A DNA stretch of 64,000 bases from Acinetobacter larvae (GTDB lineage: Bacteria; Pseudomonadota; Gammaproteobacteria; Pseudomonadales; Moraxellaceae): positions 2,914,001-2,978,000 of the forward strand of contig NZ_CP016895.1 of NCBI RefSeq assembly GCF_001704115.1, read 5' to 3'. Of the stretch, positions 27,143 through 48,169 are shown in pieces (within the stretch, counting starts at the first letter, position 1; the number at the start of each line of letters is the position of its first letter). The position numbers and the translations under genes were made by a program. The notes under the pieces were generated by a model. That model saw only the letters and a program-made list of their open reading frames with translations. It did not search any database and was not told the DNA's origin.

Positions 27143-27165
27143 AAAAAAGACCTCCATGGAGGTCT
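27143..27165 (-). terminator. Rho-independent terminator of the kpsC-kpsS unit
   Basis: The 18-base palindrome AGACCTCCATGGAGGTCT (27148-27165) is followed on the minus strand by six T. It lies about 45 bases after the kpsS stop and closes the minus-strand kpsC-kpsS transcript. Confidence 0.85.
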
Positions 27166-27207
27166 CAAATGCACTAAGCGCTAAGCAATAGTCAATTAAG
27201 AAATAAA

Positions 27208-28473
27208 TTAAGATGCACTTTTATTGTTGATATTGTTTAAAAAACACGGCTTTTGACTCATGATCACTTGACGATCATATCGCTGCATCCAAGGAGATAA
27301 GCCATAATATGCCCCATTCAACTGGGAATATTCAATCAAGCTATAGCGAAAAAAATGAAAATAGCCAGCATCCACTGCTGTAGGTTGCATCCAGAATTGA
27401 TCCAATGCATGTTGACAGGTTAAACGTGGCAAGTCATATAATGCCCGCCCCAACACCTTCACTGGGATCTCATGATATAACGCTTGTATACCCGTCGTAC
27501 TATTAATCGTTACCATACCGCGACTATTTTTCAATAAAGTCGGCAAATGAATATCACAGAAATAATGCACTCGTCCGCTGATGCCATACTGTGCGGCACA
27601 GCGCTGAATTAACACAGCATAATTGCGATAACCACGATCCATTGGATGATGTTTTAACACCAGATGATGTTCTGCATCGGCATAATCACTAAAAGACCGA
27701 ATCACTTTTTCAATATAGCTTTCCATTTTTTTCAGATCACTGTGGACACGAATCTGAAAATCATTATGCACTTGCAAGGCAAAAACAAAATATTGCTTAG
27801 CATGTTGTTGTAAAAAGCCTTGAAAGCGTCGCGGTTCCAAAAAATAATTTTTCAAACGCCGATAGCCCGAGATCAACCAATAATATAATTCTTGATCAGG
27901 ACGCATACCACGGTGATGTTTATAGTGCGGAAAATACCAACTAGCTAAAATCCACATCAAATAATAAACAAATGCGCAGCACAACATTTTACGATAGCTA
28001 TTATGTACCACATCATAATGCACAGCAGGGCGAGCTTCTCCAGTTTCGGCTTGCGCGGCTAAATACTGTTTAAAATTGGAAAAGAAATTAACCCCATCTT
28101 GCTCAAAAGTAATGTAGTTCGGTCGTATATAGCCTTCTTCACAAGCAAAAAAACCAATGCCTAATTTCAAAGAAACTTCACGCGCGATTCGATGATACTT
28201 CCGACAATCCCCAAAACACAGCAGCGCATCAATCTGATGCGCATTGATAAAATCTTGTAACCACAGATTAAAGTCACCGACCCGACCACGAAAATTATAG
28301 GCATTCTGACATTGGTGATGAAACCACCAATCTCCACCATTAAAATTTACTTTAAAAGTCTCAATCTGATGCTGTTCGAGCCATTGGGCCAACTGATTGA
28401 AGTAATCTCCCATTGGTCCTTGCAGTAATAATACTTTTTTTGATGATAAAAGTTCATCAAGATGCACAGACAT
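27208..28473 (-). CDS. kpsS: capsule polysaccharide Kdo-linker transferase KpsS
   Basis: Kdo transferase of 421 residues that, in characterised systems, puts the first beta-Kdo on lyso-phosphatidylglycerol and thereby starts the lipid anchor of ABC-exported capsules. Seen are KVLLLQGPMGDYFNQLA at the N-terminus, LLCFGDCRKYHRIARE, the conserved FACEEGYIRPNYITFE, VLKHHPMDRGYR and TINSTTGIQALYHEIPVKVLG. Length is close to E. coli KpsS. It is separated from kpsC by one base, so the two are translationally coupled, and a strong terminator follows. It acts at the cytoplasmic face of the inner membrane. Confidence 0.95.
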   Translation of the reverse strand: MSVHLDELLSSKKVLLLQGPMGDYFNQLAQWLEQHQIETFKVNFNGGDWWFHHQCQNAYNFRGRVGDFNLWLQDFINAHQIDALLCFGDCRKYHRIAREVSLKLGIGFFACEEGYIRPNYITFEQDGVNFFSNFKQYLAAQAETGEARPAVHYDVVHNSYRKMLCCAFVYYLMWILASWYFPHYKHHRGMRPDQELYYWLISGYRRLKNYFLEPRRFQGFLQQHAKQYFVFALQVHNDFQIRVHSDLKKMESYIEKVIRSFSDYADAEHHLVLKHHPMDRGYRNYAVLIQRCAAQYGISGRVHYFCDIHLPTLLKNSRGMVTINSTTGIQALYHEIPVKVLGRALYDLPRLTCQHALDQFWMQPTAVDAGYFHFFRYSLIEYSQLNGAYYGLSPWMQRYDRQVIMSQKPCFLNNINNKSAS

Positions 28474-28474
28474 A

Positions 28475-30511
28475 CTAATTAAGCTTTCCTATTCTCAAAC
28501 GCCGCATCGTGGTAAAAAGCTTGGCTAGCCATGATTTTTTGCGCGCGATGGGGTTTAACCTTTCTTGCTGTAAATAATCAATAACTTGCTCCACCCCTAC
28601 ACGCGGTATACACATATGATCTGCTACAGGTAAGTTATATACCGAGTAGTCTATTAAAGTGATATAAACCAATTCTTCTAAGCTCAATTGACGCTGACGT
28701 CGCTGGCATACATGACGATCATGTGTTAATCCCCATCCTGCATAAAATGGTAAACCATAGCAACACACAGTTACACCACGTAACAAAGCTTCAAAGCCAG
28801 TTAACGAGCTAATAGTATGTATTTCATCACATATTTTAAAACAGTCAATAATTGAAGCAAACAATTCTATACAATTTGCATATTGTAGCACTATATTGTC
28901 AGAAAGTTGCCCTTTTCTAAGCCCAGCATGCACATCGGGGTGCGGTTTATAAATAATATAAGCATCAGGATGATCTTGGCGTACTTGCTGCAATAAGCTT
29001 AGATTCGTCTTGATGTCTACGCCACCGAGTTGCACAGAAAGATCATCATCAACCTGACCAATCACCAATAAGACACGTTGTGAAGTTGCTGGACGTAATA
29101 AGCTTTTGTTTTGTCCAACATTGTATTTGGAAATCCCGGTTTGCTTGATTGTTGCAATTAATGCGCGCGCACGTTGTAACTGTGCTGCATCCAACTGCGC
29201 CTGATTAAGTTGCTGTTCCAAACTCGATGGCTGTGTCGCATCATAGTAAATGCCAAGTTCATCAAACACCAAAGCATAAGGTCGAATCAACGCAGCACCT
29301 AAGCCCAAGGAGCGAATAAAACCATCTTCTACCGTACATACCTTGCTATAGCCTTGTGCTTTCAAGGCTTTGGCTTTTTTCCCCCAAGCCACGATCTGCT
29401 GTGTTTTTTTCGGTTTTAAAAAACAATGGAATCGCACCTGAGTCTGCGGAAAAGCCAGATATGCCCGTATAAATTCACGCTTCCAACGACTAAAACCATA
29501 GGCTTGTAAGGCTGAAGGCAAAGTCGTTTGGGCTTGAATATTGGGGATTAAAATCGCTAAGATCTGTTCGAGTGTGCAAGGTTGCCCAGTAATGGGAGAC
29601 ACATAACGCGCATACTGCAGATATGCGCAATCGAAAAGCTGCGCCAGACTCCGCGCTTGTTGGCGTCGCCCCTTTAAAATATGTAAGGGGGCATGTTGAT
29701 CATCTGTCAGCCCCCATGCGGCATACCAGGGTACCCCAAAGCAATGTACCGTCTTCTCACAGAGTAAAGCTTCAAAGCCCAACTGTGAACTCACCACATA
29801 GACTTCATCCATTGCTTGCAATAGGGCAAAGGGATTGTAGTTAGCCGTTAAGGTTTGAATGCGCGGATGTTGTAAATCTTGTGCTTGGAAATGTCCTTGG
29901 GCACGTCCAGCCAAAACATCGGGATGGGTTTTTACCCAAATCACTGCATCTGGATGGTCCTGTAAGGCCTGTTGTAACATGTACTGAAAAGTTGCTGGAC
30001 GCGCCCCCGCATAATGGATCGACTGATCTCCAAAGGTTTGATCCACCACTAAAATATTTTTTTGACCCGCAAATAGCGCGGCATGAAAGGCTTCAAATTT
30101 TTGATTATATTTGGTAATACCATAGCTTTTAATCGTTGCGATGGCTGACAAGGCTCGAGGCGCGTCATGCTGTTGCATCTGAGCAATCAATTGTTCTAAA
30201 TCAGATGTTTGTAAGGCATCAAAATAAATACCACGCCGATCCATTACCAAAGACAAGGCGGGATACCCCGCCTTCCCTAGACCTAGGGAACGGATAAAAC
30301 CATCTTCGAGGCAAATACAGTCAAGACCATACTGTGCGGCATAGCGCTGCGCACGAAAAAAACTGGCTTTGCGTCCCCAGCCAGCAATTTCACGATGTTG
30401 TTTTAAGCGTTTCTTTCTAAGCAAATAATTGTTGGTCCATAAATCGCAACGATCATTGAGTAGCCCCTTAAGGCTAGCTGATTGTGCTATTTTTCTTGAA
30501 CTAACCAACAT
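28475..30511 (-). CDS. kpsC: capsule polysaccharide poly-Kdo transferase KpsC
   Basis: Dual-domain Kdo transferase of 678 residues that lengthens the Kdo linker with alternating linkages in known systems. The two homologous halves can both be seen: CLEDGFIRSLGLG near residue 70 with WVKTHPDVLAGR, and TVEDGFIRSLGLG near residue 390 with IYKPHPDVHAGL. Each half also has SSQLGFEALL or SSLTGFEALL. Neither half has lost its motif, so both are probably active. ATG 30511 is chosen because GGTGG lies before it; a TTG at 30550 would add 13 residues. First gene of kpsC-kpsS, divergent from the CgeB-like glycosyltransferase. Confidence 0.95.
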   Translation of the reverse strand: MLVSSRKIAQSASLKGLLNDRCDLWTNNYLLRKKRLKQHREIAGWGRKASFFRAQRYAAQYGLDCICLEDGFIRSLGLGKAGYPALSLVMDRRGIYFDALQTSDLEQLIAQMQQHDAPRALSAIATIKSYGITKYNQKFEAFHAALFAGQKNILVVDQTFGDQSIHYAGARPATFQYMLQQALQDHPDAVIWVKTHPDVLAGRAQGHFQAQDLQHPRIQTLTANYNPFALLQAMDEVYVVSSQLGFEALLCEKTVHCFGVPWYAAWGLTDDQHAPLHILKGRRQQARSLAQLFDCAYLQYARYVSPITGQPCTLEQILAILIPNIQAQTTLPSALQAYGFSRWKREFIRAYLAFPQTQVRFHCFLKPKKTQQIVAWGKKAKALKAQGYSKVCTVEDGFIRSLGLGAALIRPYALVFDELGIYYDATQPSSLEQQLNQAQLDAAQLQRARALIATIKQTGISKYNVGQNKSLLRPATSQRVLLVIGQVDDDLSVQLGGVDIKTNLSLLQQVRQDHPDAYIIYKPHPDVHAGLRKGQLSDNIVLQYANCIELFASIIDCFKICDEIHTISSLTGFEALLRGVTVCCYGLPFYAGWGLTHDRHVCQRRQRQLSLEELVYITLIDYSVYNLPVADHMCIPRVGVEQVIDYLQQERLNPIARKKSWLAKLFTTMRRLRIGKLN

Positions 30512-30714
30512 AAAGCAAATACCACCATGAAATTTATCGCATTTTAGCAAAAAATTTACTACTATTATAAAAAGTCCGCTCTAAATTTTTTTATGCTTCA
30601 TGCACTAACACTTTAAATTAAATGATTAGGTAACTAGATTTTTATTGACTAAACTAGCGTGTCTTATCCGTTACATTAAGCTCCATATCTTTCAAATTCA
30701 ACTGTAAGTGATCC

Positions 30715-31746
30715 ATGATTTTCACCTTTAAAACTAAGCCTCAATTCAATATTCTATCTATCTTAGATCATTTTACAGAGCAAGCTTTAAGCTTAGAGCC
30801 CCATGTTAATTTAATTCCAGCAAAAACAAGGTTTAGACCATTATTTAGCACTAAAATAGACATGTTATTGGTTGAGTCGACGTGGCTTGGAAATCAAGGT
30901 CATTGGCAATATCAAGTTGCAAGCTATCCTGAACATCCACAACGTAATAATATTAAACTCAAAAAACTAATCGATTGGGCAAAGAACAAAGGCATACCTA
31001 CCGTTTTTTGGAATAAAGAAGACCCTTTTCATTTTGAACAATTCATAGCGTCTGCTTCTTTATTTGACTATATCTTCACCACCGATAAAAATATGATCAA
31101 CCATTATAAAAAAAGGCTCAATCATACCCATATTTATAGTCTTATGTTTCCAATACAACCTAAAATTCATTATGCAACCCCACTCATAAATATCAAGCAT
31201 AAATCCAGTATCTTCATTGGAAGTTACATAAAACACATGCATAGTGAAAGGCAACAATGGCAAGATACATATTTTCCAATAGCGGCTCAATATGGTGGTT
31301 TAACCATCGTCGATCGTCATGCACAGAACACTCATGAACACTACCAATTTCCACAATTAGCCAATACCACCTACTTGGCTCAAGTGCCATATGAGCAAAC
31401 AGGACATTTATATCGGCAATACCAACAAGCATTAAATGTGAATACGATTACAGATTCACCCACTATGTTTTCGCGACGTTTACTTGAAATCATGGCATGC
31501 GGTCGACTGGCAATCAGTAATCCTTGTTTAGCCATAAACGAACATTTTAAAGCGTGTTGCGAAGTGATAGAAAACCAACAACAGGCACAACAGCTATTTA
31601 AGCAATTAGAATATGGCTATCTACCCGAACAAGTGGAAAAAATAAATTACGCATGCCACTACGTGCAACAAAATTTTAATGTACAGTCTTGGCTACAACA
31701 GATTCTACGTACGTGTAATATCGATCACCCTTATTTAACACTTTAA
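30715..31746 (+). CDS. CgeB-like glycosyltransferase of the capsule locus
   Basis: Cytoplasmic protein of 343 residues resembling CgeB/GT-B-type glycosyltransferases (glycosyl transferases group 1, second family). Motifs: VESTWLGNQGHWQYQ, GIPTVFWNKEDPFHFEQF, FDYIFTTDKNMINHY, and a C-terminal nucleotide-sugar part MFSRRLLEIMACGRLAISN. The same motifs (ESAWQGKESLWKAKV, LFWNKEDPVHFGTF, VFTTDIDCIGQY, FARRVFEMLASNTIVLSN) occur in the middle of the 1416-residue protein at 37136-41386, so the two are paralogs inside one locus. It is followed after 17 bases by the GT2 gene. It probably adds a sugar to the capsule repeat; donor and acceptor are unknown. Confidence 0.8.
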   Translation: MIFTFKTKPQFNILSILDHFTEQALSLEPHVNLIPAKTRFRPLFSTKIDMLLVESTWLGNQGHWQYQVASYPEHPQRNNIKLKKLIDWAKNKGIPTVFWNKEDPFHFEQFIASASLFDYIFTTDKNMINHYKKRLNHTHIYSLMFPIQPKIHYATPLINIKHKSSIFIGSYIKHMHSERQQWQDTYFPIAAQYGGLTIVDRHAQNTHEHYQFPQLANTTYLAQVPYEQTGHLYRQYQQALNVNTITDSPTMFSRRLLEIMACGRLAISNPCLAINEHFKACCEVIENQQQAQQLFKQLEYGYLPEQVEKINYACHYVQQNFNVQSWLQQILRTCNIDHPYLTL

Positions 31747-31763
31747 AGTGACAGGACATTATT

Positions 31764-32735
31764 TTGACTGCTCTACCCAATGACCTTGACCTAAGTATCA
31801 TCATACCAATCGATTTTAATCGTCGTGCATGGAATATTTATCAACATTGTAAGTTACTTAAAACGCAACTCAATCATCATAATGTACAGGTCATTTTAGG
31901 TTGTGTACCACAACCAGCTTTTTGGTATAAACGTTTAATTAATCTATTTAAAGATAGCCCCAATATTCATATCGTACAGACCAACACCCAGTCTAGTCAT
32001 CTATCTGAATTACGCAATCAAGCACTGCAACAGGTCACTACAACATATGTCATGTTTTTAGACATTGATATCTATTGTTCTTTTGCACAAATACAGCAAA
32101 GTTATCTTGATGTGTTGGCGCATCCCCAGCAGATTTGCATGTACCCATGTTTATATCTGAGTGCCAAAGGCAGTAAAAAAATCAATCGACTCAAACCTAA
32201 TGATTTTAAAAAAGCATATTTTCATTTTAAACGTGATTTAATTTTACATTTAGCGTTCCCCTCTTCCATCATTATCTGTGACATGCAAAGTGTTCAAAAG
32301 ATTAATGGCTTTGATCCAGCTTATATTGGACATGGATATGAGGATTTTGATTTTATGCTGCGATTATTCCATCATAAAGAGTTACTCAGTTATAGCCCTG
32401 AAATCTTAATCGATGAGCCCTATCGTGCGCCACTCATGAGCAGAGGCTTCCGTGCAATGATGGCTGAAATACAATTAGAACAACTATTAGAAGACAATTA
32501 TTTTATTCATCTATACCATAAAAAAAATAAACAAGAACGCTATTATCAAAAACGTAATAACAATCAAGCTTATTTTTTAGAAAAATTTCAGCATTTAATC
32601 AATACAGAATCAACACTAGATCGTGCTCCCCCCTATTTGCTACAACAGTTTTTTCAATTACTCAAAGAAAAACAGCATAATCGCTTGGATTATGCTGTAC
32701 TTTGGGCTGAGTTAGAGGGGCATTGGTTGAGGTGA
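31764..32735 (+). CDS. glycosyltransferase family 2 with galactosyltransferase-type C-terminal motif
   Basis: GT-A enzyme of 323 residues. The N-terminus LDLSIIIPIDFNRRAW starts the nucleotide-binding fold. The DxD-type motif is in FLDIDIY near residue 100. INGFDPAYIGHGYEDFDFML near 190 is the GT-A C-terminal motif found in chondroitin/heparosan-type polymerases and galactosyltransferases. The start codon is TTG with AGGA seven bases upstream; there is no better ATG. Its stop is five bases from the convergent DUF6270 gene. It probably forms one glycosidic bond of the capsule repeat unit; a hexosamine or galactose donor is possible by analogy only. Confidence 0.82.
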   Translation: MTALPNDLDLSIIIPIDFNRRAWNIYQHCKLLKTQLNHHNVQVILGCVPQPAFWYKRLINLFKDSPNIHIVQTNTQSSHLSELRNQALQQVTTTYVMFLDIDIYCSFAQIQQSYLDVLAHPQQICMYPCLYLSAKGSKKINRLKPNDFKKAYFHFKRDLILHLAFPSSIIICDMQSVQKINGFDPAYIGHGYEDFDFMLRLFHHKELLSYSPEILIDEPYRAPLMSRGFRAMMAEIQLEQLLEDNYFIHLYHKKNKQERYYQKRNNNQAYFLEKFQHLINTESTLDRAPPYLLQQFFQLLKEKQHNRLDYAVLWAELEGHWLR

Positions 32736-32740
32736 GAAAC

Positions 32741-33460
32741 TTAAGTAATACTTTTAATGACATAATGATAGTAGTCATCTATAAAATGAAATGGAGAAAC
32801 TCCCCATTTATGATCAGACTTTGCGATTATCAAATCTAAAGGAATCTCTATAAATTGATCTTTTTTAAGATATCTCTCCAAATATAAATACATTTGTTCT
32901 AACTTTTCATTTTCTTGAAGAACTTGTTCATCACTAATATTTTCAATTTTACTGCCACTATCTAATTCATTTGTCCAAAAAGTTCTCTGCAACTTAATAG
33001 TATTAATAGTTCCTTTTTCGTCTAGTATACTAAAAAAATTATCAACTCCCTGTTTCCATAAATCAAAAAACTTATCACTATGTGTATTTATTAAACTTTT
33101 AGGCTTAATTTTTGTTTTTAAAAATTCGTTTGAACGCGTTACCAACTGATTATTATCTAATAGTGCTAAATGAAAACGTTCATCTATTAAGTCCATCAAC
33201 AAAACATCATATTCAGAACTAACTATAGATTTTAAAATTGAATGTTGTAAATCATATTCAACAATACGCTTTTGAAACTTAGATTCAATGTTATTTAAAG
33301 AAGTTATAAAACTATTACTGGCTACTGGATTAGTATAGTTAAGAGTAGCTAAAGAGCTTCTTGCAAAATAATTAATTAATGAATATTCTCTATTAGATAT
33401 AAATTCCAAAGAGTCTCTAGAAACACAACTACCATATATTAATATACTCAAATTTTTCAT
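32741..33460 (-). CDS. DUF6270 domain protein (SGNH-hydrolase-like)
   Basis: Protein of 239 residues, low GC. The N-terminus ILIYGSCVSRDSLEFI and the C-terminal DHKWGVSPFHFIDDYYHYVI agree with the DUF6270 family, often met in polysaccharide loci. The GSCxSRD and the late D-x-x-H-like region recall SGNH/GDSL hydrolases, with the usual serine loop shifted. A role in adding or removing an acyl group from capsule sugars is possible but not shown. No signal peptide, so cytoplasmic. It lies downstream of the heparinase-like gene on the same strand, with 371 AT-rich bases between them. Confidence 0.75.
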   Translation of the reverse strand: MKNLSILIYGSCVSRDSLEFISNREYSLINYFARSSLATLNYTNPVASNSFITSLNNIESKFQKRIVEYDLQHSILKSIVSSEYDVLLMDLIDERFHLALLDNNQLVTRSNEFLKTKIKPKSLINTHSDKFFDLWKQGVDNFFSILDEKGTINTIKLQRTFWTNELDSGSKIENISDEQVLQENEKLEQMYLYLERYLKKDQFIEIPLDLIIAKSDHKWGVSPFHFIDDYYHYVIKSIT

Positions 33461-33831: not shown

Positions 33832-35652
33832 TTAGAAAAGAGGTTTTATACTCCAGATAATCTGATTAAAGCGGTCATTCAAATATATCCGCAAATTAAA
33901 AACATTAAAACTCTTATAATAAGTTGGACTTACTCTACCTTCATTTACATGATTATCACCATGAGAAACAACTACATCTTCGTATCCACTATGCAACTTT
34001 ATTTCAACAATTTCTTTATTATTTTTCTTAACCTTTATTACACCATTTTTATTAGAAATAAATATACCATGATTAAATAGTAAATTTAAATAAACTCTTC
34101 CATCAAAATCATTTTTTACAACAGAATCTTTAAATAAAATTTCACCATTTGAAAAGACATCAATTTTACGTTTCCATTTAAATATATTTTTATTATTTAA
34201 TAGAGAGGAATATCCACCTAGGGAACAATCAACATCTTCAGAAAGACATTCATCTTTAAAAACAAAACTTTGATTAAGTTGAACATCTTGCGGATAAAAG
34301 ATATTATCTTCAATACACAAAACATTATGGGCACGATCAGAGGTGAAATATTTTCTAAAATCACTATGATCGTAACTATACTTACCACCATCAGCAAAAA
34401 TATTTTGACCAAAAACACCATATATAAAACTTAAATTATCAGCATGTTTATGAATTAGATTTTTATTACTAGCACTAAAACATAAAAAAGTATGCAATTC
34501 TTCAAACTTTCTATATACAATATAGTTAGAATCAATTAAATTTAGTAAATAGTATTTTTTGGCAGAATCATAATAATTATTATCACCAACAAAATTAACA
34601 CCTTTACCTTCAGTATCACCTATTGTAAAAAGATTGCCATCATAATCAGTAAACCATGATAAAATTTTATTTTTATTTCTTTTTATAGCTAAGATACGTT
34701 CATTATCTTTTACAAAAAGCTCCTCAGGAATTACACTCAAAAGATCACACAAATATAGATGATAATATGGAGAGTTCTCACTTGAAAAACCATCCTTATT
34801 GATAAGACTATTAAGTAATAAAGTCATCATATCTTCACTATAATTTAGTATATCATTATATTTTTCACCATTATATGATATAACAAGCATTCGAAGTGAT
34901 ATCATTTGCCATACACCATGATTCCCATGTGATAAAAATTCTTTGTTAAATAATTTTTCAATATGAAGATCATATAAATGCTGTAACTTCTCTACTTCAA
35001 CATTCGAAAAAATATTATTTACTAGATTAATATTATTAATTTCAAAAAACAAAGCAAGATGAATACCTCTTAACGCACAAGACATATCATACCATAAAAA
35101 CTCTTTTCTCCTGCTATCACCATTATAAATAAAATCATAATATTCCAATATCTTATCTTTTATTTCCAAAATATAATTACAATTATAAGTTTTGAAAAAT
35201 TCATTCCAAATTGGGGAGAGAAAACGCCAAGAGTTTAAATTAAATGCAAGGTTTCTATCTTTATTTATCCAGTTTATTTTTTCAAAAACATTAAAGTATT
35301 TAGCATCATTTCTACACTTATACCCTTTTTCTTTTAAGATTTTATAATCACCCAAAATTATCGTTCTATATTTACTTCTAACATCATTGACTAATAATAA
35401 TTCTTTTGATTCAAATATTTTTTTAGATATTTCATTACTAACATAATACACTAAAATTCTAATTTTTTTATTTAAAAGATCAAAGGCGTTAAAATGAAAA
35501 TTTAATGATTTAAAGTAAAAAATCTTAATTTTCTTTTTTCCTTCAAACACATACAAAATAAAAGAATCGCCATCTGATTTTACTTCTAAATTTTGGATTT
35601 CAATTAGATATCTTTTTTTTGAAGAATTATACGAACAAACCACGCCAACCAT
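33832..35652 (-). CDS. heparinase II/III family protein without signal peptide
   Basis: Polysaccharide-lyase-type protein of 606 residues. Family motifs in order: WYDMSCALRGIHLALFF, SHGNHGVWQM near 240, GFSSENSPYYHLYLCDLL, IGDTEGKG, HKHADNLSFIYG near 399 and SDRAHNVL near 439. These are the helix-barrel and beta-sandwich elements of heparinase II/III and alginate lyases, and the usual catalytic His/Tyr/Asn candidates are present. The N-terminus (MVGVVCSYNSSKKRYL) has no signal peptide, so it seems to stay in the cytoplasm. The first 100 residues are a beta-rich module. GGGAG precedes the ATG. GC is far below the kps genes, a sign of separate origin. It may degrade or edit uronic-acid capsule inside the cell. 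Confidence 0.85.
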   Translation of the reverse strand: MVGVVCSYNSSKKRYLIEIQNLEVKSDGDSFILYVFEGKKKIKIFYFKSLNFHFNAFDLLNKKIRILVYYVSNEISKKIFESKELLLVNDVRSKYRTIILGDYKILKEKGYKCRNDAKYFNVFEKINWINKDRNLAFNLNSWRFLSPIWNEFFKTYNCNYILEIKDKILEYYDFIYNGDSRRKEFLWYDMSCALRGIHLALFFEINNINLVNNIFSNVEVEKLQHLYDLHIEKLFNKEFLSHGNHGVWQMISLRMLVISYNGEKYNDILNYSEDMMTLLLNSLINKDGFSSENSPYYHLYLCDLLSVIPEELFVKDNERILAIKRNKNKILSWFTDYDGNLFTIGDTEGKGVNFVGDNNYYDSAKKYYLLNLIDSNYIVYRKFEELHTFLCFSASNKNLIHKHADNLSFIYGVFGQNIFADGGKYSYDHSDFRKYFTSDRAHNVLCIEDNIFYPQDVQLNQSFVFKDECLSEDVDCSLGGYSSLLNNKNIFKWKRKIDVFSNGEILFKDSVVKNDFDGRVYLNLLFNHGIFISNKNGVIKVKKNNKEIVEIKLHSGYEDVVVSHGDNHVNEGRVSPTYYKSFNVFNLRIYLNDRFNQIIWSIKPLF

Positions 35653-35813: not shown

Positions 35814-37073
35814 ATGTTAAACTCTCTCAAGCACATTTTTAACCTAAAAAAAGTTAAATGGCTTTCTAACTTTAATGAAAGTGAAAATGAAATAAATTTT
35901 AGTTTTAAATCTCAAGCATCTTTTAAATATCTAGAATCTGACAAATTTAGTATCGACGATGCAAAAGGAAAATGCTTAAGTTTTATAACATCAACCCCAA
36001 CCAATTTAAGTTTTATTATTATATATTTTAATGGAAGTGAAAAGCTAAGTTTGCAAGGGTTCTACTCTCATAAAATTCAAGAATTAATTATTCCTATCGA
36101 TGCAACACATTTTAAATTATGTTTAAGAGTAGTTCCTTCTGAAAATATTAACATTAATTACTTTAAATTTACCAATAAAATAAATATAGAGAAGGATTAT
36201 TTAAATTTATTTTCATTCAAAGCGCAGTTTAATGAATGTAAGCCATCAATTAAGCAAGTAAAAATAATAATTGAGACTTTGTTTTGCGACACAGAAAAAA
36301 ATGAGATAACTTTAGATAAATATTTAAGTTTTCTAGAAGCGCAACTATTTATATACTCACAAAATCAATATAATATTGAAAATATATACTGGGTAGTACA
36401 TATTTCATCAGATAAACAAAAGTATATTAATAAAATCAACATTTTTAAAAAAAAATACTCTATAAAAAATATTTACATCAACATATATAACCACTTAAAA
36501 TCTTATCAATCCAATGAAAATAGTATTGATAAAAGAGTCAAACCAAATTTATTTTATCCAAACTATAACCGTTTATTTGAAAATTTTTTAAAAAAACTTC
36601 CTAGAAACTTCCATCTAAAAAACTATATTATACGCATAGGATTAGACGATGATGACTTCCTATCGAACGATCATTATTTAAAAATTTTTAATACTGTAAA
36701 AAAATATATCAGTAATATTAAGTCTAATTCAGAAACTTATATTGGTTTCCCTGAATGTAATTTGGTTTATTATAAGTTTGATGGTAAGATTCTACTAAAA
36801 AAACAAATTCTTCGAAGAATTATGACTGGAAATAGATTTGTTATCTCTTACAATAAAATACCACAAACATCACCATTTTCACTAACAGAGGATTTCACAA
36901 AACAATCATCAGAAAACTATATTATAGAATCATCAGAAAATCCAACTTTCTTTTACAATAGGCATGGAAATAACTTATCTAATAACTCTAAAGATCATCA
37001 TACCCATACAAATATATCTGAAATAGATTTTAATAATCATCAGGAACTATTAAACTATATTATTTCCAAATAA
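35814..37073 (+). CDS. putative glycosyltransferase with N-terminal beta-sandwich module
   Basis: Protein of 419 residues from the low-GC centre of the locus. The C-terminal half has IIRIGLDDDDFLSNDHYLK near 270, the pattern of GT-A-like transferases related to the putative rhamnosyltransferase group, with the acidic run as metal and donor site. IETLFCDTEKNEITLDKYL and IYWVVHISS begin that domain. The first 120 residues (FSFKSQASFKYL, IPIDATHFKLCLRVVPS) look like a beta-sandwich and resemble, faintly, the two beta modules inside the 1416-residue transferase. AGGAT lies about six bases before ATG. I do not recognise the exact family; glycosyl transfer is an inference from the motif and location. 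Confidence 0.65.
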   Translation: MLNSLKHIFNLKKVKWLSNFNESENEINFSFKSQASFKYLESDKFSIDDAKGKCLSFITSTPTNLSFIIIYFNGSEKLSLQGFYSHKIQELIIPIDATHFKLCLRVVPSENININYFKFTNKINIEKDYLNLFSFKAQFNECKPSIKQVKIIIETLFCDTEKNEITLDKYLSFLEAQLFIYSQNQYNIENIYWVVHISSDKQKYINKINIFKKKYSIKNIYINIYNHLKSYQSNENSIDKRVKPNLFYPNYNRLFENFLKKLPRNFHLKNYIIRIGLDDDDFLSNDHYLKIFNTVKKYISNIKSNSETYIGFPECNLVYYKFDGKILLKKQILRRIMTGNRFVISYNKIPQTSPFSLTEDFTKQSSENYIIESSENPTFFYNRHGNNLSNNSKDHHTHTNISEIDFNNHQELLNYIISK

Positions 37074-37135
37074 AATTAAATAACCGCAATATATAAATAT
37101 TGCGGTTTACAATAATTAAAATTTGATATTATTAG

Positions 37136-41386: not shown

Positions 41387-41443
41387 TGTCATGCCCAATA
41401 TATTCCAATTTATCAAATTACGATTTAATATTTTTGACCGATC

Positions 41444-42679
41444 TTAAATATCGGATACAAAACTTAATATACTCTTTTCAGCTAATTGATTCTGCAAATT
41501 AGCAAACTGAGAATGATTTACTAATATTGCAACTAAGTCAGCCTCATTCACATCATTTTGTTCAATTAATTTTGCTGCATTAAGTTTCTGCGGAATAGTG
41601 TCAATATTTGGTTCTACAATTAGGACCTCATACAGGCTTTTCTCGACTACTTTCTCAGCAATTTCAATCGCAGGACTTTCACGTAGATCATCAATATTCG
41701 GTTTAAAAGCTAAACCTAATAATGCTACTTTAGGTTTACGTCCTAAGTCACCGAGCTGCTCTACAGCCTGCTCAATTTTTTTAACGACCCACTCTGGTTT
41801 ATGATCATTTACTTTACGTGCAGTATCTACCATACGCGCAAGATCTGGCGTTTTATTAACAATAAACCATGGATCAACAGCGATACAGTGACCACCGACC
41901 CCAGCACCTGGTTGTAAAATATTTACCCGTGGATGATGGTTGGCGAGTTTAATCAATTCCCAAACATTGATATCTAAACGATCACTAATCAATGACAGCT
42001 CATTGGCAAAAGCAATGTTGACATCACGGAAAGCATTTTCTGTCAGTTTGGTCATTTCTGCAGTACGTGCATTGGTTTCTAGCAAATCGCCTTTTACAAA
42101 TATTTGATATACTGCCTTAGCCTTTTGGGTACACGCTGGTGTAATCCCACCAATGGTACGGTCATTTTCAACGAGTTCACGTACAACTTGCCCCGGCAAT
42201 ACACGTTCAGGACAGTAAGCCACGTAAATGTCTATATTTTCATCTGTTGCAGATTTTGGAAAGTTTAAATCTGGACGTTGTTCAGCCAGCCACTCTACCA
42301 TTTGCTCTGTAGCACCGACGGGCGAAGTAGACTCCAGAATGACTACATTACCTTTTTGTAACACTGGTGCAATGGCCTTAGCGGCAGCCTGAATATAACT
42401 TAGATCAGGTGTATGGTCCTCACCTTTAAATGGCGTAGGCACTGCAATTAGAAATGCATCCGCTTCCTCTGCTGTATTTGATGCTTTTAAATGTCCTGAA
42501 GCAACAACTTTCTTGACAATCTCTTCTAAGCCAGGCTCAACAATATGGATTCTTCCTTGATTGATTGTATCAATCGCATGTTGGTTAACATCTAAACCAA
42601 TTACTGTAGCCCCATAATGAGCAAACATTGTTGCGGTTGGTAAGCCAATATATCCTAGTCCACTAACAGAAACTTTCAT
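41444..42679 (-). CDS. wecC: UDP-N-acetyl-D-mannosamine dehydrogenase
   Basis: NAD-dependent UDP-sugar 6-dehydrogenase of 411 residues that turns UDP-ManNAc into UDP-ManNAcA. The Rossmann motif is VSGLGYIGLPTATMFAHYG. AVPTPFKGEDHTPDLSYI, LESTSPVGATEQ and the catalytic cysteine in GVGGHCIAVDPWF are typical of WecC. ALLGLAFKPNIDDLRESPA opens the C-terminal domain. It follows wecB, whose product is its substrate, by 30 bases. In this locus it supplies the uronic acid precursor for the capsule rather than enterobacterial common antigen, since no other ECA genes are present. UDP-glucose dehydrogenase is less probable given the fit and the wecB neighbour. Confidence 0.92.
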   Translation of the reverse strand: MKVSVSGLGYIGLPTATMFAHYGATVIGLDVNQHAIDTINQGRIHIVEPGLEEIVKKVVASGHLKASNTAEEADAFLIAVPTPFKGEDHTPDLSYIQAAAKAIAPVLQKGNVVILESTSPVGATEQMVEWLAEQRPDLNFPKSATDENIDIYVAYCPERVLPGQVVRELVENDRTIGGITPACTQKAKAVYQIFVKGDLLETNARTAEMTKLTENAFRDVNIAFANELSLISDRLDINVWELIKLANHHPRVNILQPGAGVGGHCIAVDPWFIVNKTPDLARMVDTARKVNDHKPEWVVKKIEQAVEQLGDLGRKPKVALLGLAFKPNIDDLRESPAIEIAEKVVEKSLYEVLIVEPNIDTIPQKLNAAKLIEQNDVNEADLVAILVNHSQFANLQNQLAEKSILSFVSDI

Positions 42680-42709
42680 AAAACCAAACTCTATGTAACT
42701 TATATAATA

Positions 42710-43855
42710 TTAATCAATAAAAAAATGTGCTGAAAAACGTTTTTTAATCGCTGCGACAATGCGTTGACAAGCTTCTCCATCCCCATATGGATTGTGCGCT
42801 TTAGACATTTGCTCATAAACTTCTTTATTTTCTAAAAGCTCAACCACATTATTTACAATATTGGCAACATCCGTTCCAACGAGCTTCACTGTTCCAGCAG
42901 CTACCGCTTCTGGGCGTTCAGTGGTATCACGCATCACCAACACAGGTAAGCCAAGAGAAGGAGCTTCTTCCTGTATGCCGCCTGAGTCCGTCAACAATAA
43001 ATCGCTATGCAACATGAGCCAAATAAATGGCAAATATTCTTGAGGTTCTATTAATTTAATATTCTCAAAACCTTTTAATAGCCGATTCACAGGTTCACGG
43101 ACATTTGGGTTGAGATGCATTGGGTAAACAAATTCAACCTCAGGAAAACGGCTAGCGAGTTGTTGCAATGCATTACAGATATCTTCAAAACCTTGACCAA
43201 AGTTTTCACGACGATGCCCTGTAATCAATACACGCTTTTTAGTCAAATCAAGACTACTATAGTGTTCACGCATTTCTTGATCGATACAGTCATGATGTTC
43301 AAGTTTGGCTTTAATTGTCAGTAAGGCATCAATGACTGTATTTCCGGTTACATAGATATCTTCTGCTTTGACAAATTCTTGTTTTAAATGTTGTTCTGCG
43401 GTAGTGGTTGGTGCAAAGTGCATGCTTGCCAATACCCCAGTAAGTTGTCTATTGCCTTCTTCTGGCCATGGTGAATAGAGCTGATAAGTACGCAATCCAG
43501 CCTCAACATGCCCAACAGGAATTCGATTATAAAATGCTGCCATAGATGCGCAGAAAGTAGTACTGGTATCCCCATGTACCAACACCAAATCAGGCTTAAA
43601 CTCTTTGAGTACAGGATCTAGTTTCAACAACATATTGGCGGTCATTTCAGTCAGAGACTGACCTGCCTTCATAATATTTAGATCATATTGTGGTGTAATT
43701 TCAAATAGTTGCAACACAGAATCCAACATTTGACGATGTTGTGCTGTTACACATACCCTTGCATCAATTTTTGCTTCTGCATTCAAAGCATGCACCAAAG
43801 GTGCCATTTTAATAGCTTCTGGTCGTGTACCAAAAACGATGAGTACTTTTAACAT
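42710..43855 (-). CDS. wecB: UDP-N-acetylglucosamine 2-epimerase (non-hydrolysing)
   Basis: Epimerase of 381 residues that converts UDP-GlcNAc to UDP-ManNAc. Seen: [21 protein letters not shown] at the N-terminus, [19 protein letters not shown], the active-site [37 protein letters not shown], and [15 protein letters not shown] with [11 protein letters not shown]. All are standard for the non-hydrolysing family. It lies between kpsD (15 bases) and wecC (30 bases) in the capsule operon. The pair resembles nmaA-nmaB of the Mannheimia haemolytica A1 capsule locus, where the capsule contains N-acetylmannosaminuronic acid. Confidence 0.94.
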
Positions 43856-43870
43856 GTTTTCTCTCTTCCC

Positions 43871-45571
43871 CTACCAATCCAACGCGATCTTCGCGCCAAC
43901 TGCGATTTGATAAATAATCTGAGTAATACCCCGTACCACTTCAATCGATTTAGATTGAACCTTCGGTAATACTAGAATCTCATCGCCTTGTTGAATCTTA
44001 TAACTCTTCGATAAAAGCTCTGCTTCACCATTGGCATGCATCACAATCACTTTAGATTTATTGGACTTCTGACTAAAACCACCAACCTGTGAAATATAAT
44101 CAGCAGCTGTTAGATTAGGCTGAAAACCTATCGCATTTGGAAAAGCGACTTCGCCATGGACCATAATCACCGAACTAATTTCTGGTACTACCAGCACATC
44201 CCCTTGTTCTAAAATCACGTCATTATAATTTTCAGGGTTAAGCACCACTTGTCCTTTGGGCTGTACACTACGTGCCTTGGCAATAAACTGCTTGACCAAC
44301 TCAGCGTCTTTAACCCGTAAGTTGGCTTCTTCTTGCGTGCTAGAACGCGCATTAAAAGTGGCGTTTTCAAGATTATCGAGTGCGACATTGAGCATTTCTT
44401 TTTGACGCTTTGCCACAGATGGGCGATAAAGCTGTAATGCATTGACATTGGATAAGACATTCGGGGTAATTTGCGTAAGAACTTGCGAAAGTTTGGCACC
44501 ATAAGGCAGTACAATGGCATGTGGACCATTATGCGCACCTTCCACCCGGACTTGAATACTGCCTGCATAACGATCTGCAGTGACATTGAGAATATCACCA
44601 TCTTGTACAGTGACATTTTGCGCATCATTCAATGAATAATATTCACTACGGAATTCATTACCCTGACGTCTTAAAATACTGACGTTGGTTGCGCCCGGTT
44701 TAGGCTTAGCAATGGCTAATGCTTGTGCAACAGAAATTTGCCCAGCATTAAACTCAAAATCATAGGCATTATAAACTTCACCGCCAATGTTAAAGGTATG
44801 CGTACGTGGACCCACCACAATAATATCGCCATCACGGAAGGAGAAAGGTTGTACGCGACCGGATATTAAAAACTCATATAGATCGACACGCTGCATCAAA
44901 CGACCAGCGCGCATAATATCGACATTAATATAACTGCCACGTTCGGCATCTACCCCACCAGCCCGGTCTAAATAGGCCACCACAGTATCATTGGCAACAC
45001 CACCATAATTCCCCGGTTGACTCACATAACCAGTCACGAGCACTTGTACGGGTTGTGCTTTTTCTAAGGCAGCATATACACCAACATTGGCTACATATAT
45101 TTTACGTACATGACTGCTAATTAACGCTTGTAAATTACCATTGCTGGTACCCGCAACTTTTACTGGACCAACATTGGGTAAGAATATATTCCCTTCAGGA
45201 TCTACTGTTAAATTCCCTGCAAACTGATAAGCGCCCCATAAGCGCACATTAATATGATCCCCTGGGTTAATGCGATAACTGTCATTAAAAGTCGAGCCAG
45301 CTGTATTGGCAAAGGCACCTTTAAACAACTGTGCACCGAACATATTTTTAGCATTGGGATCAATCAAATTTTGTGCAGTCTGACCCGTGAGATTTAGCAC
45401 CGATTGGTTAGGTAAAATCGTTTGATCCGCTGCATTATTTAAACTACGGTCTTGACCACTTGCAGCACTTTGTATTGCCTGTCCTGCATCTGGCAACATA
45501 TTTTGATTATATGCCGCGTGCACAATCGAAATGCTGGTACTTAGTATAGATAACAGTAGAATTCTTTTCAT
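43871..45571 (-). CDS. kpsD: capsule export outer-membrane channel component KpsD
   Basis: Periplasmic/outer-membrane polysaccharide export protein of 566 residues. The signal peptide runs to about residue 19 (ILSTSISIVHA). The polysaccharide-export domain follows at about 95-180 (YRINPGDHINVRLWGAYQFA, VDPEGNIFLPNVGPVKVAG). Then come several SLBB-type domains (VLVTGYVSQPGNYGGV, FNIGGEVYNAYDFEFNAGQ, VMVHGEVAFPNAIGFQPNLT). It has no lipobox cysteine, like E. coli KpsD and unlike Wza, and the length is near the 558 of E. coli KpsD. With KpsE and KpsMT it forms the trans-envelope exporter. The start is three bases after the kpsE stop. Confidence 0.93.
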   Translation of the reverse strand: MKRILLLSILSTSISIVHAAYNQNMLPDAGQAIQSAASGQDRSLNNAADQTILPNQSVLNLTGQTAQNLIDPNAKNMFGAQLFKGAFANTAGSTFNDSYRINPGDHINVRLWGAYQFAGNLTVDPEGNIFLPNVGPVKVAGTSNGNLQALISSHVRKIYVANVGVYAALEKAQPVQVLVTGYVSQPGNYGGVANDTVVAYLDRAGGVDAERGSYINVDIMRAGRLMQRVDLYEFLISGRVQPFSFRDGDIIVVGPRTHTFNIGGEVYNAYDFEFNAGQISVAQALAIAKPKPGATNVSILRRQGNEFRSEYYSLNDAQNVTVQDGDILNVTADRYAGSIQVRVEGAHNGPHAIVLPYGAKLSQVLTQITPNVLSNVNALQLYRPSVAKRQKEMLNVALDNLENATFNARSSTQEEANLRVKDAELVKQFIAKARSVQPKGQVVLNPENYNDVILEQGDVLVVPEISSVIMVHGEVAFPNAIGFQPNLTAADYISQVGGFSQKSNKSKVIVMHANGEAELLSKSYKIQQGDEILVLPKVQSKSIEVVRGITQIIYQIAVGAKIALDW

Positions 45572-45574
45572 GAT

Positions 45575-46672
45575 TTATTCTCTATGCTCGCGGACAATGG
45601 AATGAACAAGTAACCCAATCGCAAATAAAATATTGAGTAAGATAAATGCGGTAATGCTTAAGTAAACTTTACGTGGATACAATGCATCTTGTGCCAAACG
45701 TGGTTGTTCGATGACGATCAATTTCTTTAATTTACGAGCGACTTCTAGACGTGATTTTTCAAGTGATGCCAAAGACAATTTATAGAGATCCGTAGCAAAA
45801 GTAACTTGCGCTTTTAACGCTTCAAAATCGGCAATATTACGGTTTAATTTTTCATTACCGGGAGAGGTCAGTTTGGCATTTTCATCTTCTATTTGCTTTT
45901 GCACCGATTCCATTTGGCTACGAATTGCAACCACTTGCGGTGCTTCTGGGTTTAAGTAACTCAGCAAAGTACGTTCTTCTGTACGGAGCTGAGCCAAACT
46001 ACTTTGTAAACTCGCAACAATCGTCGACACAGCCTGTGCTTGGATTTCCGGATCAAACATTTTATGTTTATTTTGATAGGTCAATAAATCTTCACGTGAC
46101 TGATTCAGTTTATGCGCTGCCTCTTTTAATTGTGTTTCTGCAAATTTTAATTGTTCATCGGCTATGCTTTGAGAGATATGGTTAATAAAGTCATCACTTT
46201 GTTTCAGGATGGCATTATTCAATTTTAAAGAGAACGCAGGGCTAAAACCTTGGCTAGAGACTTTTAGCATCATGGTTTTTTCATCCAGATTCACACTTAC
46301 GCGACTCTGGAAATACTTCACTAATTCTTCGATACTCGGCTCTTTCTTTAAAGAGAAAATCGGGTCACCTGAAATATGGAACTGTTGTCTTAGCTTTAAC
46401 TCTTTATCAAGTTTCTCCACCATATCACGAGATGTCACATATTCTTTTAAGATATTGGCATCTTCTGTACTGGTATTGGCAACACCTAATAATGCCGAAA
46501 TTCCAGTGGTATCGGCTGGTGTCGTATCGGCAACTTGTTTCACCAGAACCAGAGAAGAGGACTCATAGCGGTCTTTGGCCAATACTGTTAAATATAAAAT
46601 AACCAACAGTAGCGGTAGTAGAACCACTATGCTATAGAGCATAATTAGGCGCTTATTGAGTTTAGACTGCAT
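45575..46672 (-). CDS. kpsE: capsule export inner-membrane/periplasmic protein KpsE
   Basis: Polysaccharide co-polymerase type 3 (PCP-3) protein of 365 residues. It has one N-terminal membrane helix (LIMLYSIVVLLPLLLVILYL), a large periplasmic part with coiled coil (LKEAAHKLNQSREDLLTYQN, RTEERTLLSYLNPEAPQV) and a C-terminal helix (KVYLSITAFILLNILFAIGL). SSSLVLVKQVADTTPADT is the conserved segment after the first helix, and ALYPRKVYLS stands before the last helix as in KpsE/CtrB/BexC. It connects KpsM to KpsD. The start overlaps kpsT by 11 bases. Confidence 0.93.
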   Translation of the reverse strand: MQSKLNKRLIMLYSIVVLLPLLLVILYLTVLAKDRYESSSLVLVKQVADTTPADTTGISALLGVANTSTEDANILKEYVTSRDMVEKLDKELKLRQQFHISGDPIFSLKKEPSIEELVKYFQSRVSVNLDEKTMMLKVSSQGFSPAFSLKLNNAILKQSDDFINHISQSIADEQLKFAETQLKEAAHKLNQSREDLLTYQNKHKMFDPEIQAQAVSTIVASLQSSLAQLRTEERTLLSYLNPEAPQVVAIRSQMESVQKQIEDENAKLTSPGNEKLNRNIADFEALKAQVTFATDLYKLSLASLEKSRLEVARKLKKLIVIEQPRLAQDALYPRKVYLSITAFILLNILFAIGLLVHSIVREHRE

Positions 46673-47324
46673 ATTGTTTATATACCTCTACCGCATGTTC
46701 GACATTATCAAAATATTCTGCTTGACCATCACGTACCAAAAAAGCCACATCACAATTCCGAGTCAAGTCATTTAGATCGTGAGAAACCATAATAATATTA
46801 GAATGTTGTTTTAATTCATTAAGTAAAGACTGACTTTTTTTACGAAAAGACGCATCGCCTACTGCGCCAGCTTCATCTAGCAAGTAGTAATCAAAATTAA
46901 ATGCCATACTCAGACCAAAACCGATTCGGCTACGCATCCCCGAAGAATAACTTTTAATCGGCATATCGAAATATTTACCAATTTCAGCAAAGTCTTCGAC
47001 AAAATCGACCACCTGTTGCACTTCCTCTTCACTCGAAACATAAAGCCTTGCCACAAAACGGACATTTTGCCGTGCCGTCATACTGCCCTGAAAACCACCA
47101 GACAGTGCCACAGGCCAAGAAATTGATTTATTGGTTATTACCCGCCCAGAGTCAGCATAATCAATCCCACCAATAATGCGCAGCAAGGTACTTTTACCCG
47201 CGCCATTTTTCCCCAATAAAGCGACACTTTTATTTTCAGGCAATATGGCATTTAGATTTTTAAAAACATAATGACGCCCTTTCGGCGTGGCATAAGATTT
47301 AGTCAGGTTTTTTAATTCAATCAT
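46662..47324 (-). CDS. kpsT: capsule ABC exporter ATPase KpsT
   Basis: ABC ATPase of 220 residues powering export of finished capsule. Walker A is LLGKNGAGKSTLL near residue 40. The signature loop is YSSGMRSRIGFGL, typical of the ABC-2 polysaccharide subfamily, instead of LSGGQ. Walker B is FDYYLLDEAGAVGD, followed by the switch histidine in IIMVSHDLNDL. The glycine and lysine needed for ATP are intact. It has the short length of KpsT/CtrD, without a C-terminal carbohydrate-binding domain such as that of Wzt O9a, so export is probably not tied to a chain terminator. It overlaps kpsM by four bases (ATGA). Confidence 0.95.
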   Translation of the reverse strand: MIELKNLTKSYATPKGRHYVFKNLNAILPENKSVALLGKNGAGKSTLLRIIGGIDYADSGRVITNKSISWPVALSGGFQGSMTARQNVRFVARLYVSSEEEVQQVVDFVEDFAEIGKYFDMPIKSYSSGMRSRIGFGLSMAFNFDYYLLDEAGAVGDASFRKKSQSLLNELKQHSNIIMVSHDLNDLTRNCDVAFLVRDGQAEYFDNVEHAVEVYKQYAV

Positions 47325-48148
47325 TTTGACCTCACTAAGCGACGCTCAAAACGTTTATACAGTAATAGCCCAATCAATAAGGTAATGAAGGTCCAAGTCC
47401 AAAAATAGCCTAGACTAATGCCTTGTACCAAGGGATAACTCGGCGCCACGGCATGACGCATATTTTCAAATATATGTATCAGTGGGTTATAAAGTAGATA
47501 CTGTTGATATTGTGTAGGGATAATATGGATCGAATAAATAATACCCGATAAAAAATATAATAATAAAAAAAGTATAGTCAGGAATTTATTCAGTTCACTT
47601 GAAAAACTTCCTAACACCATAAATACTAAACTAGCCGCTAGCATAAATATAAATAGAGATAACCAATAACCCAGTAACTGAGGAATCGCCTCAAAACTCA
47701 TGCTATAACCAAACCATAACACCAAGCCAGTAAAAAACACATAAGCACAAAAACTTAAAAATAATTCTAATATATTGCGTGCTAACACAGCATCTATTGG
47801 TCTAACTGGTCTATAGGCAAATAATCCTTTATTAGCATCAGAAGCACTGACAGCTTGCGTTAGTCCTTTACGAAGCATAAAAAAAGGAATAATGCCATTA
47901 ATCAGGAATATCTCATAGTCAATACCCGGTAGGGTTTTTTTCATTATTGTGCCAAATAATATAAGCAACACACCGATATTGAACATAGGCTCAATAAAAA
48001 TCCAAAGATACCCTAAACGATATTGACCAAAACGCGTTTGTAACTCGCGCAAGAATAAAGCACGAATTGCTGCGTACATCACCATTAAGCCATTACGCGG
48101 CTTTAGGCGAGGCAACTTTTTAAGGTTATTGTGATTTTGCGCCGACAT
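47321..48148 (-). CDS. kpsM: capsule ABC exporter permease KpsM
   Basis: ABC-2 permease of about 275 residues with six membrane helices. Hallmarks: RALFLRELQTRFGQYRLGYL with the amphipathic entry helix, WIFIEPMFNIGVLLILFG, FLINGIIPFFMLRKGL, LFAYRPVRPIDAVLARNILE, and YFLSGIIYSIHIIPTQYQQY before HIFENMRHAV. The start is uncertain: ATG 48148 is chosen, but a GTG at 48169 would add seven residues; neither has a good ribosome site. It is the first gene of the operon kpsM-kpsT-kpsE-kpsD-wecB-wecC-glycosyltransferase. The promoter must lie in the AT-rich DNA up to about 48.5 kb, where a 9-base inverted repeat (AGCTAAATT at 48226 and AATTTAGCT at 48269) is found. Confidence 0.93.
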   Translation of the reverse strand: MSAQNHNNLKKLPRLKPRNGLMVMYAAIRALFLRELQTRFGQYRLGYLWIFIEPMFNIGVLLILFGTIMKKTLPGIDYEIFLINGIIPFFMLRKGLTQAVSASDANKGLFAYRPVRPIDAVLARNILELFLSFCAYVFFTGLVLWFGYSMSFEAIPQLLGYWLSLFIFMLAASLVFMVLGSFSSELNKFLTILFLLLYFLSGIIYSIHIIPTQYQQYLLYNPLIHIFENMRHAVAPSYPLVQGISLGYFWTWTFITLLIGLLLYKRFERRLVRSK

Positions 48149-48169
48149 AGAGTGTGTTATGGAATGCAC

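Follow-up and report, generated by a model that had tools for sequence, protein, structure and literature searches.

We analyzed a 64,000-nucleotide stretch of the Acinetobacter larvae chromosome (NZ_CP016895.1, positions 2,914,001 to 2,978,000; here called the window) and found in it, at positions 27208 to 48169, a 14-gene ATP-binding cassette (ABC) transporter-dependent, group 2-like capsule locus. We think it likely that this locus is complete and working, in an Acinetobacter strain that also has a Wzx/Wzy K locus. The order is kpsM-kpsT-kpsE-kpsD-wecB-wecC and a gene for a 1426-amino-acid (aa) glycosyltransferase, all on the minus strand, then a mixed-strand serotype block, and then kpsC-kpsS, again on the minus strand. 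An earlier note on this DNA had listed the six kps genes, wecB and wecC as complete, and Pfam and NCBIfam searches located all of them on the minus strand where it had placed them. Its description of kpsC and kpsS as a pair standing apart did not hold, as M-T-E-D, variable region, and C-S is the usual order in the genus. A normal stop ends each of the 14 reading frames and none is broken, which favors the first half of its wording that the strain "has or had" this capsule type over the second.

The locus carries what marks a group 2-like system: a KpsM-KpsT exporter with KpsE and KpsD, KpsS together with a bimodular KpsC with QXXXD motifs, and variable serotype genes flanked by conserved blocks. 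A supply of cytidine monophosphate-3-deoxy-d-manno-octulosonic acid (CMP-Kdo), also expected of such a system, is encoded elsewhere in the genome. Both halves of KpsC matched solved KpsC modules (6mgc, E = 9.8e-68; 6mgd, E = 6.6e-65). The QXXXD motifs lie at Q171-D175 and Q499-D503 in KpsC and at Q234-D238 in KpsS, and the EDGF glutamates of KpsC are E82 and E408. These motifs and both glutamates were invariant among 20 aligned KpsC and 20 aligned KpsS proteins, the window's included; QXXXD is thus retained in all three predicted beta-Kdo transferase modules, two in KpsC and one in KpsS. The accessible text of PMC10148158 and PMC12887879 places the catalytic Asp in QXXXD and names Glu66 as the general base of Escherichia coli KpsC-N, to which E82 appears to correspond if the chain numbering is shifted by one. 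Judging by its relatives, the kpsC start is likely later than listed. Searches with KpsS alone, and with KpsS and gtA profiles, gave no useful match against solved structures. The NCBIfam models named in Table 1 were the best matches of KpsM and KpsE despite scores below their cut-offs. Identity to genus relatives of the same kps type was 79 to 90% for KpsT, 53 to 62% for KpsC and 52 to 68% for KpsS; for KpsD it was 66 to 76% against other Acinetobacter kps loci, with some rows partial and one 56% fragment (L046).

The earlier note had also reported that kpsF and kpsU were absent, which is true of the locus: neither is among its 14 genes, and KpsF/KpsU-type genes were found only elsewhere in the genome. 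The chromosome has one KdsB (TIGR00466, 249.3 bits; cut-off, 155.2) and one KdsD (TIGR00393, 342.3 bits; cut-off, 203.7), both outside the kps locus, and these single genes can, as far as their assignments go, supply CMP-Kdo.

The window belongs to a single 3.74-Mb contig, and the second capsule system that had been suspected in this strain is present on it. The genome encodes two Poly_export proteins, KpsD in the window and Wza (G000:C1, 124 kb). The latter belongs to a Wzx/Wzy K locus at about 119 to 146 kb of that contig, beside FKBP-type isomerase genes (the fkpA position), with genes for Wzc, Wzb, Wza, a TviB-type dehydrogenase, Wzx, an EpsG-type Wzy, glycosyltransferases, an initiating sugar transferase, GalU, GalE and Pgm. 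The expectation that such a locus would lie between fkpA and lldP held for the fkpA side; at the other end, the stretches read showed malic enzyme after pgm and no lldP. If the contig is circular, about 0.92 Mb separates the two capsule loci. None of the 14 genes of the window locus encodes Wza-Wzb-Wzc, Wzx, Wzy or an initiating transferase. According to the portion of PMC5542703 available, more than half of the genomes with an ABC-dependent capsule also carry a Group I capsule. Type I secretion genes also stand near the K locus (L192, 4791 to 9663; G000:C1, about 152.8 to 157.7 kb) and encode an LssB-type ATPase scoring over its cut-off, an HlyD-type fusion protein and an outer membrane efflux protein.

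We surveyed 175 Acinetobacter species genomes and found PF05159 in 43, with at least three matches, the pattern of KpsC plus KpsS, in 33. Both proteins were seen in 32 of the 33 (the G135 contig ends after kpsC), and 31 loci were examined, the window and 30 others; G004 and G100 sit on tiny contigs. Among the other ten genomes, three (G013, G019 and G023) have a divergent kps system and seven have a single weaker match, which we guess to be pseudaminic acid transferases of K loci. The divergent systems (L047, L051 and L052) encode KpsS, KpsE and KpsT proteins that are 39 to 42%, 26 to 27% and 42 to 43% identical to those of the window. In the family, which we take to be the Moraxellaceae and whose named members fit, PF05159 occurs in 126 of 348 genomes and 8 of 16 genera, although PF05159 alone does not define a kps locus. 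In a midpoint-rooted tree of 53 KpsC proteins, all 31 Acinetobacter rows fell into one 100/100 group, with Psychrobacter and Alkanindiges nearest outside it, and a 100/99 branch split these three genera from 17 other rows, the Enterobacteria and Pasteurellaceae among them. One metagenome-assembled contig labeled Wohlfahrtiimonas (L085, CANRJJ010000046.1) is nested in the Acinetobacter group; it is probably mis-binned, the same sample having yielded an Acinetobacter kps contig (L080). Because the tree groups the Acinetobacter copies with those of other Moraxellaceae, the kps locus looks like an old family trait, patchily kept or exchanged, rather than a recent import. The view that kps is rare in Acinetobacter was overstated, and the locus is not foreign to the group. 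At the same time, it is not the case that most Acinetobacter genomes carry the same kps locus at this position, a finding that would have spoken against the earlier note: only the 33 genomes have the pattern, and at 29 other Acinetobacter dusA sites, with 1.5 kb read to the left and right, no kps gene adjoins dusA. An origin of the contig in a different genus, which would also have spoken against it, is not borne out, as the assignment to Acinetobacter is supported.

Nine kps carriers (G071, G100, G111, G118, G144, G153, G156, G162 and G163) showed no Wzc, with best E values of 8.7e-5 or weaker or no match at all, whereas the three controls (G000, G050 and G037) gave E values of 1.6e-157 or better. 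The nine had been chosen for their low Poly_export counts and the lack of a Wza-like match. They have one Poly_export protein each, except for G100 and G156 with none; completeness is at least 98% in eight and 80% in G156, and the assemblies are mostly of many contigs. The case for the absence of Wzc is strong but not final, and kps may be the only capsule pathway in these carriers. At the other extreme, seven genomes (G050, G055, G062, G081, G135, G160 and G161) have three Poly_export proteins each; G050, G055 and G062 have two Wza-sized copies, and G050 has two Wzc. Some kps carriers may thus have three polysaccharide export systems.

The locus points with confidence to a single sugar donor, uridine diphosphate-N-acetylmannosaminuronic acid (UDP-ManNAcA), because WecB and WecC score well over their NCBI cut-offs. 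The earlier note had proposed at least four glycosyltransferase candidates, and we counted five glycosyltransferase domains in the variable region: gtA, gtB, two in the 1426-aa protein, and one, by fold only, in a 419-aa open reading frame (ORF). The structural model of gtA (mean predicted local distance difference test [pLDDT] score, 92) matches the GT-B type, with general GT-B/GT4-like matches at TM scores of about 0.6 or less that carry no sugar specificity. Neither gtB nor the heparinase-like protein gave a useful match to solved structures. Both domains of the 1426-aa protein have many invariant residues among 23 aligned relatives, and among the matches listed, 13 database proteins besides itself are 55 to 61% identical over 99% of its length. 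Named relatives come from Psychrobacter, Wohlfahrtiimonas, Ignatzschineria and others; Ignatzschineria sp. F8392 has such a relative, DUF6270 and gtA beside kpsC. This protein is likely the main capsule polymerase. For the 419-aa ORF, neither Pfam nor NCBIfam gave a match, and the database contains 11 further relatives; its structural model (mean pLDDT, 77) has a GT-A domain at residues 145 to 403, which includes an invariant DDDD. The DUF6270 protein has relatives in 4 other kps loci, and its GSC-SRD start and DxxH-like end are reminiscent of SGNH enzymes; our guess is a polymer-modifying acyltransferase or esterase. Likewise, we guess that the heparinase-like protein is a lyase or epimerase acting on a uronic-acid polymer. 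As a marker of wecBC loci, heparinase-like proteins were not supported: the search returned the window protein only, and the L057 candidate was a GT2 protein. The three middle serotype genes have a GC content of 24 to 25% versus 45% outside, and the serotype region of this locus may therefore be of later date than its kps frame. Six other loci (L035, L046, L054, L058, L065 and L070) encode large serotype proteins of about 730 to 1180 aa with an additional PF05159 match; these proteins might incorporate Kdo, or a sugar related to it, within the polymer.

Among the 31 Acinetobacter loci, gtA and gtB occurred together in 10 of the 10 with wecBC and in 0 of the 16 without (Fisher P = 1.9e-7, relatedness ignored). 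The 16 have the complete kpsD-to-kpsC interval within the 20 kb fetched, so wecBC or gtAB may lie farther out there. Five untyped loci with contig ends or cut intervals (L038, L040, L046, L062 and L063) were left out, and three of the five have gtA. In the wecBC locus of G017, gtA and gtB were found only after a further stretch was read, a second look that the 16 loci without wecBC did not get. L054, L059 and L064 hold dehydrogenase or epimerase relatives that are weak and were not counted as wecBC. On the KpsC tree (26 rows), the joint type required 5 changes, at least 4 of them by well-supported branches; therefore, the four genes would have been gained or lost together several times. By their distribution and position, GtA and GtB are candidate transition transferases, and we tentatively suggest that they may bridge the Kdo linker and the ManNAcA-containing polymer. 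In the text available from PMC11666461, CpsA/CpsC of Actinobacillus pleuropneumoniae have the role to which we liken that of gtA/gtB, connecting the serotype polymer with the Kdo linker, but they add glycerol-3-phosphate, and the CgeB-like GT-B protein gtA and the GT2-type protein gtB belong to other families.

Several results weigh against parts of this reading. KpsS (376.7 bits; cut-off, 600), KpsM and KpsE all score under their NCBI cut-offs. A pseudaminic acid transferase of an Acinetobacter baumannii capsule is called a KpsC homologue in the available text of PMC12887879, and thus not every PF05159 protein is a Kdo transferase. Loci of the wecBC type group together on the KpsC tree (an equally low value arose in 8 of 500 shuffles), and the Fisher P value therefore overstates independence. 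Weak gtB-like domains occur in larger proteins of L035, L061 and L070, which we did not count as gtB. Outside Acinetobacter, gtA stands near kpsC with no wecB or wecC match in Ignatzschineria (L092, L131 and L142), Rodentibacter (L122) and Burkholderia (L146), with about 10 kb or less per side seen in most of the non-Acinetobacter gtA loci; it stands there with wecBC in Avibacterium. Because of the loci with no visible wecBC, gtA is not strictly tied to ManNAcA. Finally, some of the three low-GC serotype genes may be recent arrivals.

From what we observed (gene content, intact frames, catalytic motifs, distribution, co-occurrence and the second K locus), we infer how expression, polymer structure, lipid anchor and the role of each glycosyltransferase might fit together. 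KpsS would add beta-Kdo to phosphatidylglycerol and KpsC would extend it to a short Kdo linker, with CMP-Kdo drawn from the chromosomal KdsD/KdsB pathway shared with lipooligosaccharide (LOS). WecB and WecC would produce UDP-ManNAcA, GtA and GtB might put the first residues on the Kdo linker, and the 1426-aa protein and the 419-aa GT-A enzyme would build a ManNAcA-containing heteropolymer, possibly modified by the DUF6270 and heparinase-like proteins. Export of the polymer would then go through KpsMT together with KpsE and KpsD, and the resulting sugar coat is probably lipid anchored.

The locus abuts dusA, which differs from its site in 15 other carriers, where kpsS lies 31 to 63 kb from wza (both listed on one contig; the nearer wza where there are two). 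Flanks in several other Acinetobacter kps loci are malic enzyme/PhyH and BolA-SirB-ParA, or DadA-Lrp-Alr. In the stretch of 40 kb past malic enzyme in the A. larvae genome, the usual carrier site, no kps remnant was found, bar general ABC-ATPase matches. In 13 of the 29 other Acinetobacter genomes (L157 to L185), the DNA immediately upstream of dusA holds an integrase gene or a piece of one (two are 113 and 133 aa), and all three that we tested had a Phage_integrase match; dusA thus serves as an insertion site in Acinetobacter. We considered a dusA-borne island with an integrase and att repeats, and neither was found at the window locus: 18 flank proteins scanned included no integrase, and blastn for a dusA-end repeat in the window gave short matches only. 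Insertion of the kps locus by a dusA-type element is a guess.

These observations bear on whether a group 2 locus was recently imported from Enterobacteria or Pasteurellaceae through the dusA insertion site. Its place beside dusA, the integrases at that site in other genomes, the departure from the location in other carriers and the GC content (34.6% in the locus versus 45.0% outside) would all suit such an event, but the window KpsC sits inside the 100/100 all-Acinetobacter group and across the 100/99 branch from Enterobacteria and Pasteurellaceae, and no integrase or longer repeat marks the flank. The KpsC tree disfavors a recent import, which we regard as very improbable; movement of the kps locus within the genus is possible. 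A somewhat less remote alternative, still unlikely, is that the locus is intact and silent or decaying, its function having been taken over by the Wzx/Wzy K locus. Between kpsM and dusA lies 1.15 kb of AT-rich DNA with no ORF of 100 aa, in which promoter-like sites numbered 2 versus 5.2 in shuffles, and the AT richness of the three middle serotype genes points the same way. Against silence stand the 14 unbroken frames and the retention in KpsC and KpsS of the residues invariant among relatives. A sigma-70-like site with 10 of 12 matches lies on the right strand at 48874 to 48846, about 0.7 kb upstream of kpsM, though such matches are not evidence of function. We also looked for insertion sequence or plasmid debris in the 1.15-kb gap and rejected it, as the gap had no match to plasmids.

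The exported polymer could instead be a secreted or LOS-linked glycan, or KpsC and KpsS could add a nonulosonic acid other than Kdo, as a KpsC-family enzyme of an A. baumannii capsule does with pseudaminic acid (PMC12887879, in the text available). We consider this the least probable of the alternatives, given that KpsC is bimodular, that both its modules match true KpsC structures and that it is accompanied by KpsMTED; moreover, none of the 14 locus proteins matched a nonulosonic acid synthase family in Pfam or NCBIfam. A complete group 2-like capsule locus remains our favored reading. A broader picture we regard as possible rather than probable: Acinetobacter would have two capsule lineages, Wzx/Wzy and an old Moraxellaceae kps system in about one-fifth of species, the latter serving as sole capsule export in at least eight near-complete genomes, with ManNAcA types defined by a co-traveling wecB-wecC-gtA-gtB set in which GtA/GtB join the Kdo linker to the polymer.

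Table 1. Capsule locus genes and neighboring features, by position in the window
Feature	Position	Strand	Assignment and evidence
Terminator-like hairpin after kpsS	27147..27166	-	8-pair stem plus T run; 1 found versus 1.1 in shuffles (chance level)
kpsS	27208..28473	-	Predicted first beta-Kdo transferase onto phosphatidylglycerol, 421 aa; PF05159, E = 9e-71; NF050054, 376.7 bits
kpsC	28475..30550	-	Dual-module beta-Kdo transferase predicted to extend the Kdo linker, 691 aa; PF05159 in 3 stretches, E = 1.5e-87
gtA	30715..31746	+	CgeB-like GT-B glycosyltransferase, divergent from kpsC, candidate transition transferase; PF13524, E = 3.4e-10
gtB	31764..32735	+	GT2-type glycosyltransferase, gtA partner; PF10111, E = 3.8e-23
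DUF6270 protein	32741..33460	-	PF19786, E = 1.2e-65; GC, 25.4%
Heparinase II/III-like protein	33832..35652	-	PF07940, E = 2.8e-10; GC, 24.5%
419-aa glycosyltransferase	35814..37073	+	GT-A fold (model), invariant DDDD
1426-aa protein	37136..41416	-	Two glycosyltransferase domains: CgeB-like, PF13524, E = 1.7e-16; GT4, PF00534, E = 2.2e-16
wecC	41444..42679	-	UDP-N-acetylmannosamine (UDP-ManNAc) dehydrogenase, yielding UDP-ManNAcA; NF008286, 635.1 bits (cut-off, 459)
wecB	42710..43855	-	UDP-N-acetylglucosamine 2-epimerase, yielding UDP-ManNAc; TIGR00236, 530.9 bits (cut-off, 210.15)
kpsD	43871..45571	-	Polysaccharide export protein, 566 aa; PF02563, E = 9.5e-19
kpsE	45575..46672	-	Inner-membrane export protein; TIGR01010, 311.1 bits (below cut-off, 437.5)
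kpsT	46662..47324	-	ABC transporter ATPase; PF00005, E = 3.6e-15; Walker A GKNGAGKS
kpsM	47321..48169	-	ABC transporter permease; NF050053, 182.1 bits (below cut-off, 300)
dusA	49320..50351	+	Flank gene outside the capsule system; NF008774, 497.5 bits

An Rfam scan of the window gave no match. Elsewhere in the window, positions 19361 to 25166 encode an amino acid permease, an APH-family phosphotransferase, an AraC-type regulator and a class-III aminotransferase, which resembles an amino-acid catabolic cluster.

The E. coli group 2 kps locus includes kpsF and kpsU, and its gene order differs from M-T-E-D-serotype-C-S. The window locus resembles the E. coli K1/K5 systems in having KpsM, T, E, D, C and S around a serotype region and a dual-module KpsC with QXXXD, and its KpsC is about 42 to 45% identical to enterobacterial KpsC; lacking kpsF and kpsU, it is not an E. 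coli group 2 kps locus in the strict sense. It shares its gene order with the kps loci of A. lwoffii, A. towneri, A. terrae, A. rudis, A. higginsii, A. equi and other Acinetobacter species, but differs from them in its serotype genes and in its position at dusA. Psychrobacter (L130, L135 and L154) likewise has kpsM-T-E-D and then kpsC-kpsS, with KpsC 40 to 43% identical, and Alkanindiges (L091) has kpsC and kpsS side by side, with KpsC 54% identical. The Acinetobacter Wzx/Wzy K locus is also a capsule system but depends on Wzx, Wzy, Wzc and an initiating sugar transferase.

We found no description of an Acinetobacter kps locus in the open-access literature, taken as article texts without supplements; the CapsuleFinder tables of PMC5542703 may list some genomes. 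Acinetobacter capsule is treated as Wzx/Wzy (group 1) in the available text of PMC12505892 and PMC12904642, and kps genes are listed in the E. coli section of that of PMC12323661. According to the text available from PMC8144575, which describes no locus, PCR with a gene set usual in E. coli typing gave products scored as kpsMII in 47 of 200 A. baumannii isolates. The nine carriers with no Wzc found and the tie of gtA-gtB to wecBC-type kps loci seem to be new. The surprise is the spread of kps in Acinetobacter and the species without Wzc. Should Kdo-lipid-anchored capsules prove common in Acinetobacter, typing by the K locus alone would be incomplete, and in the Wzc-less carriers, if that absence is true, it would search in the wrong place. 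The presence of kps loci with and without wecBC in one genus would also offer a natural experiment on the enzymes that connect the Kdo linker with the serotype polymer.

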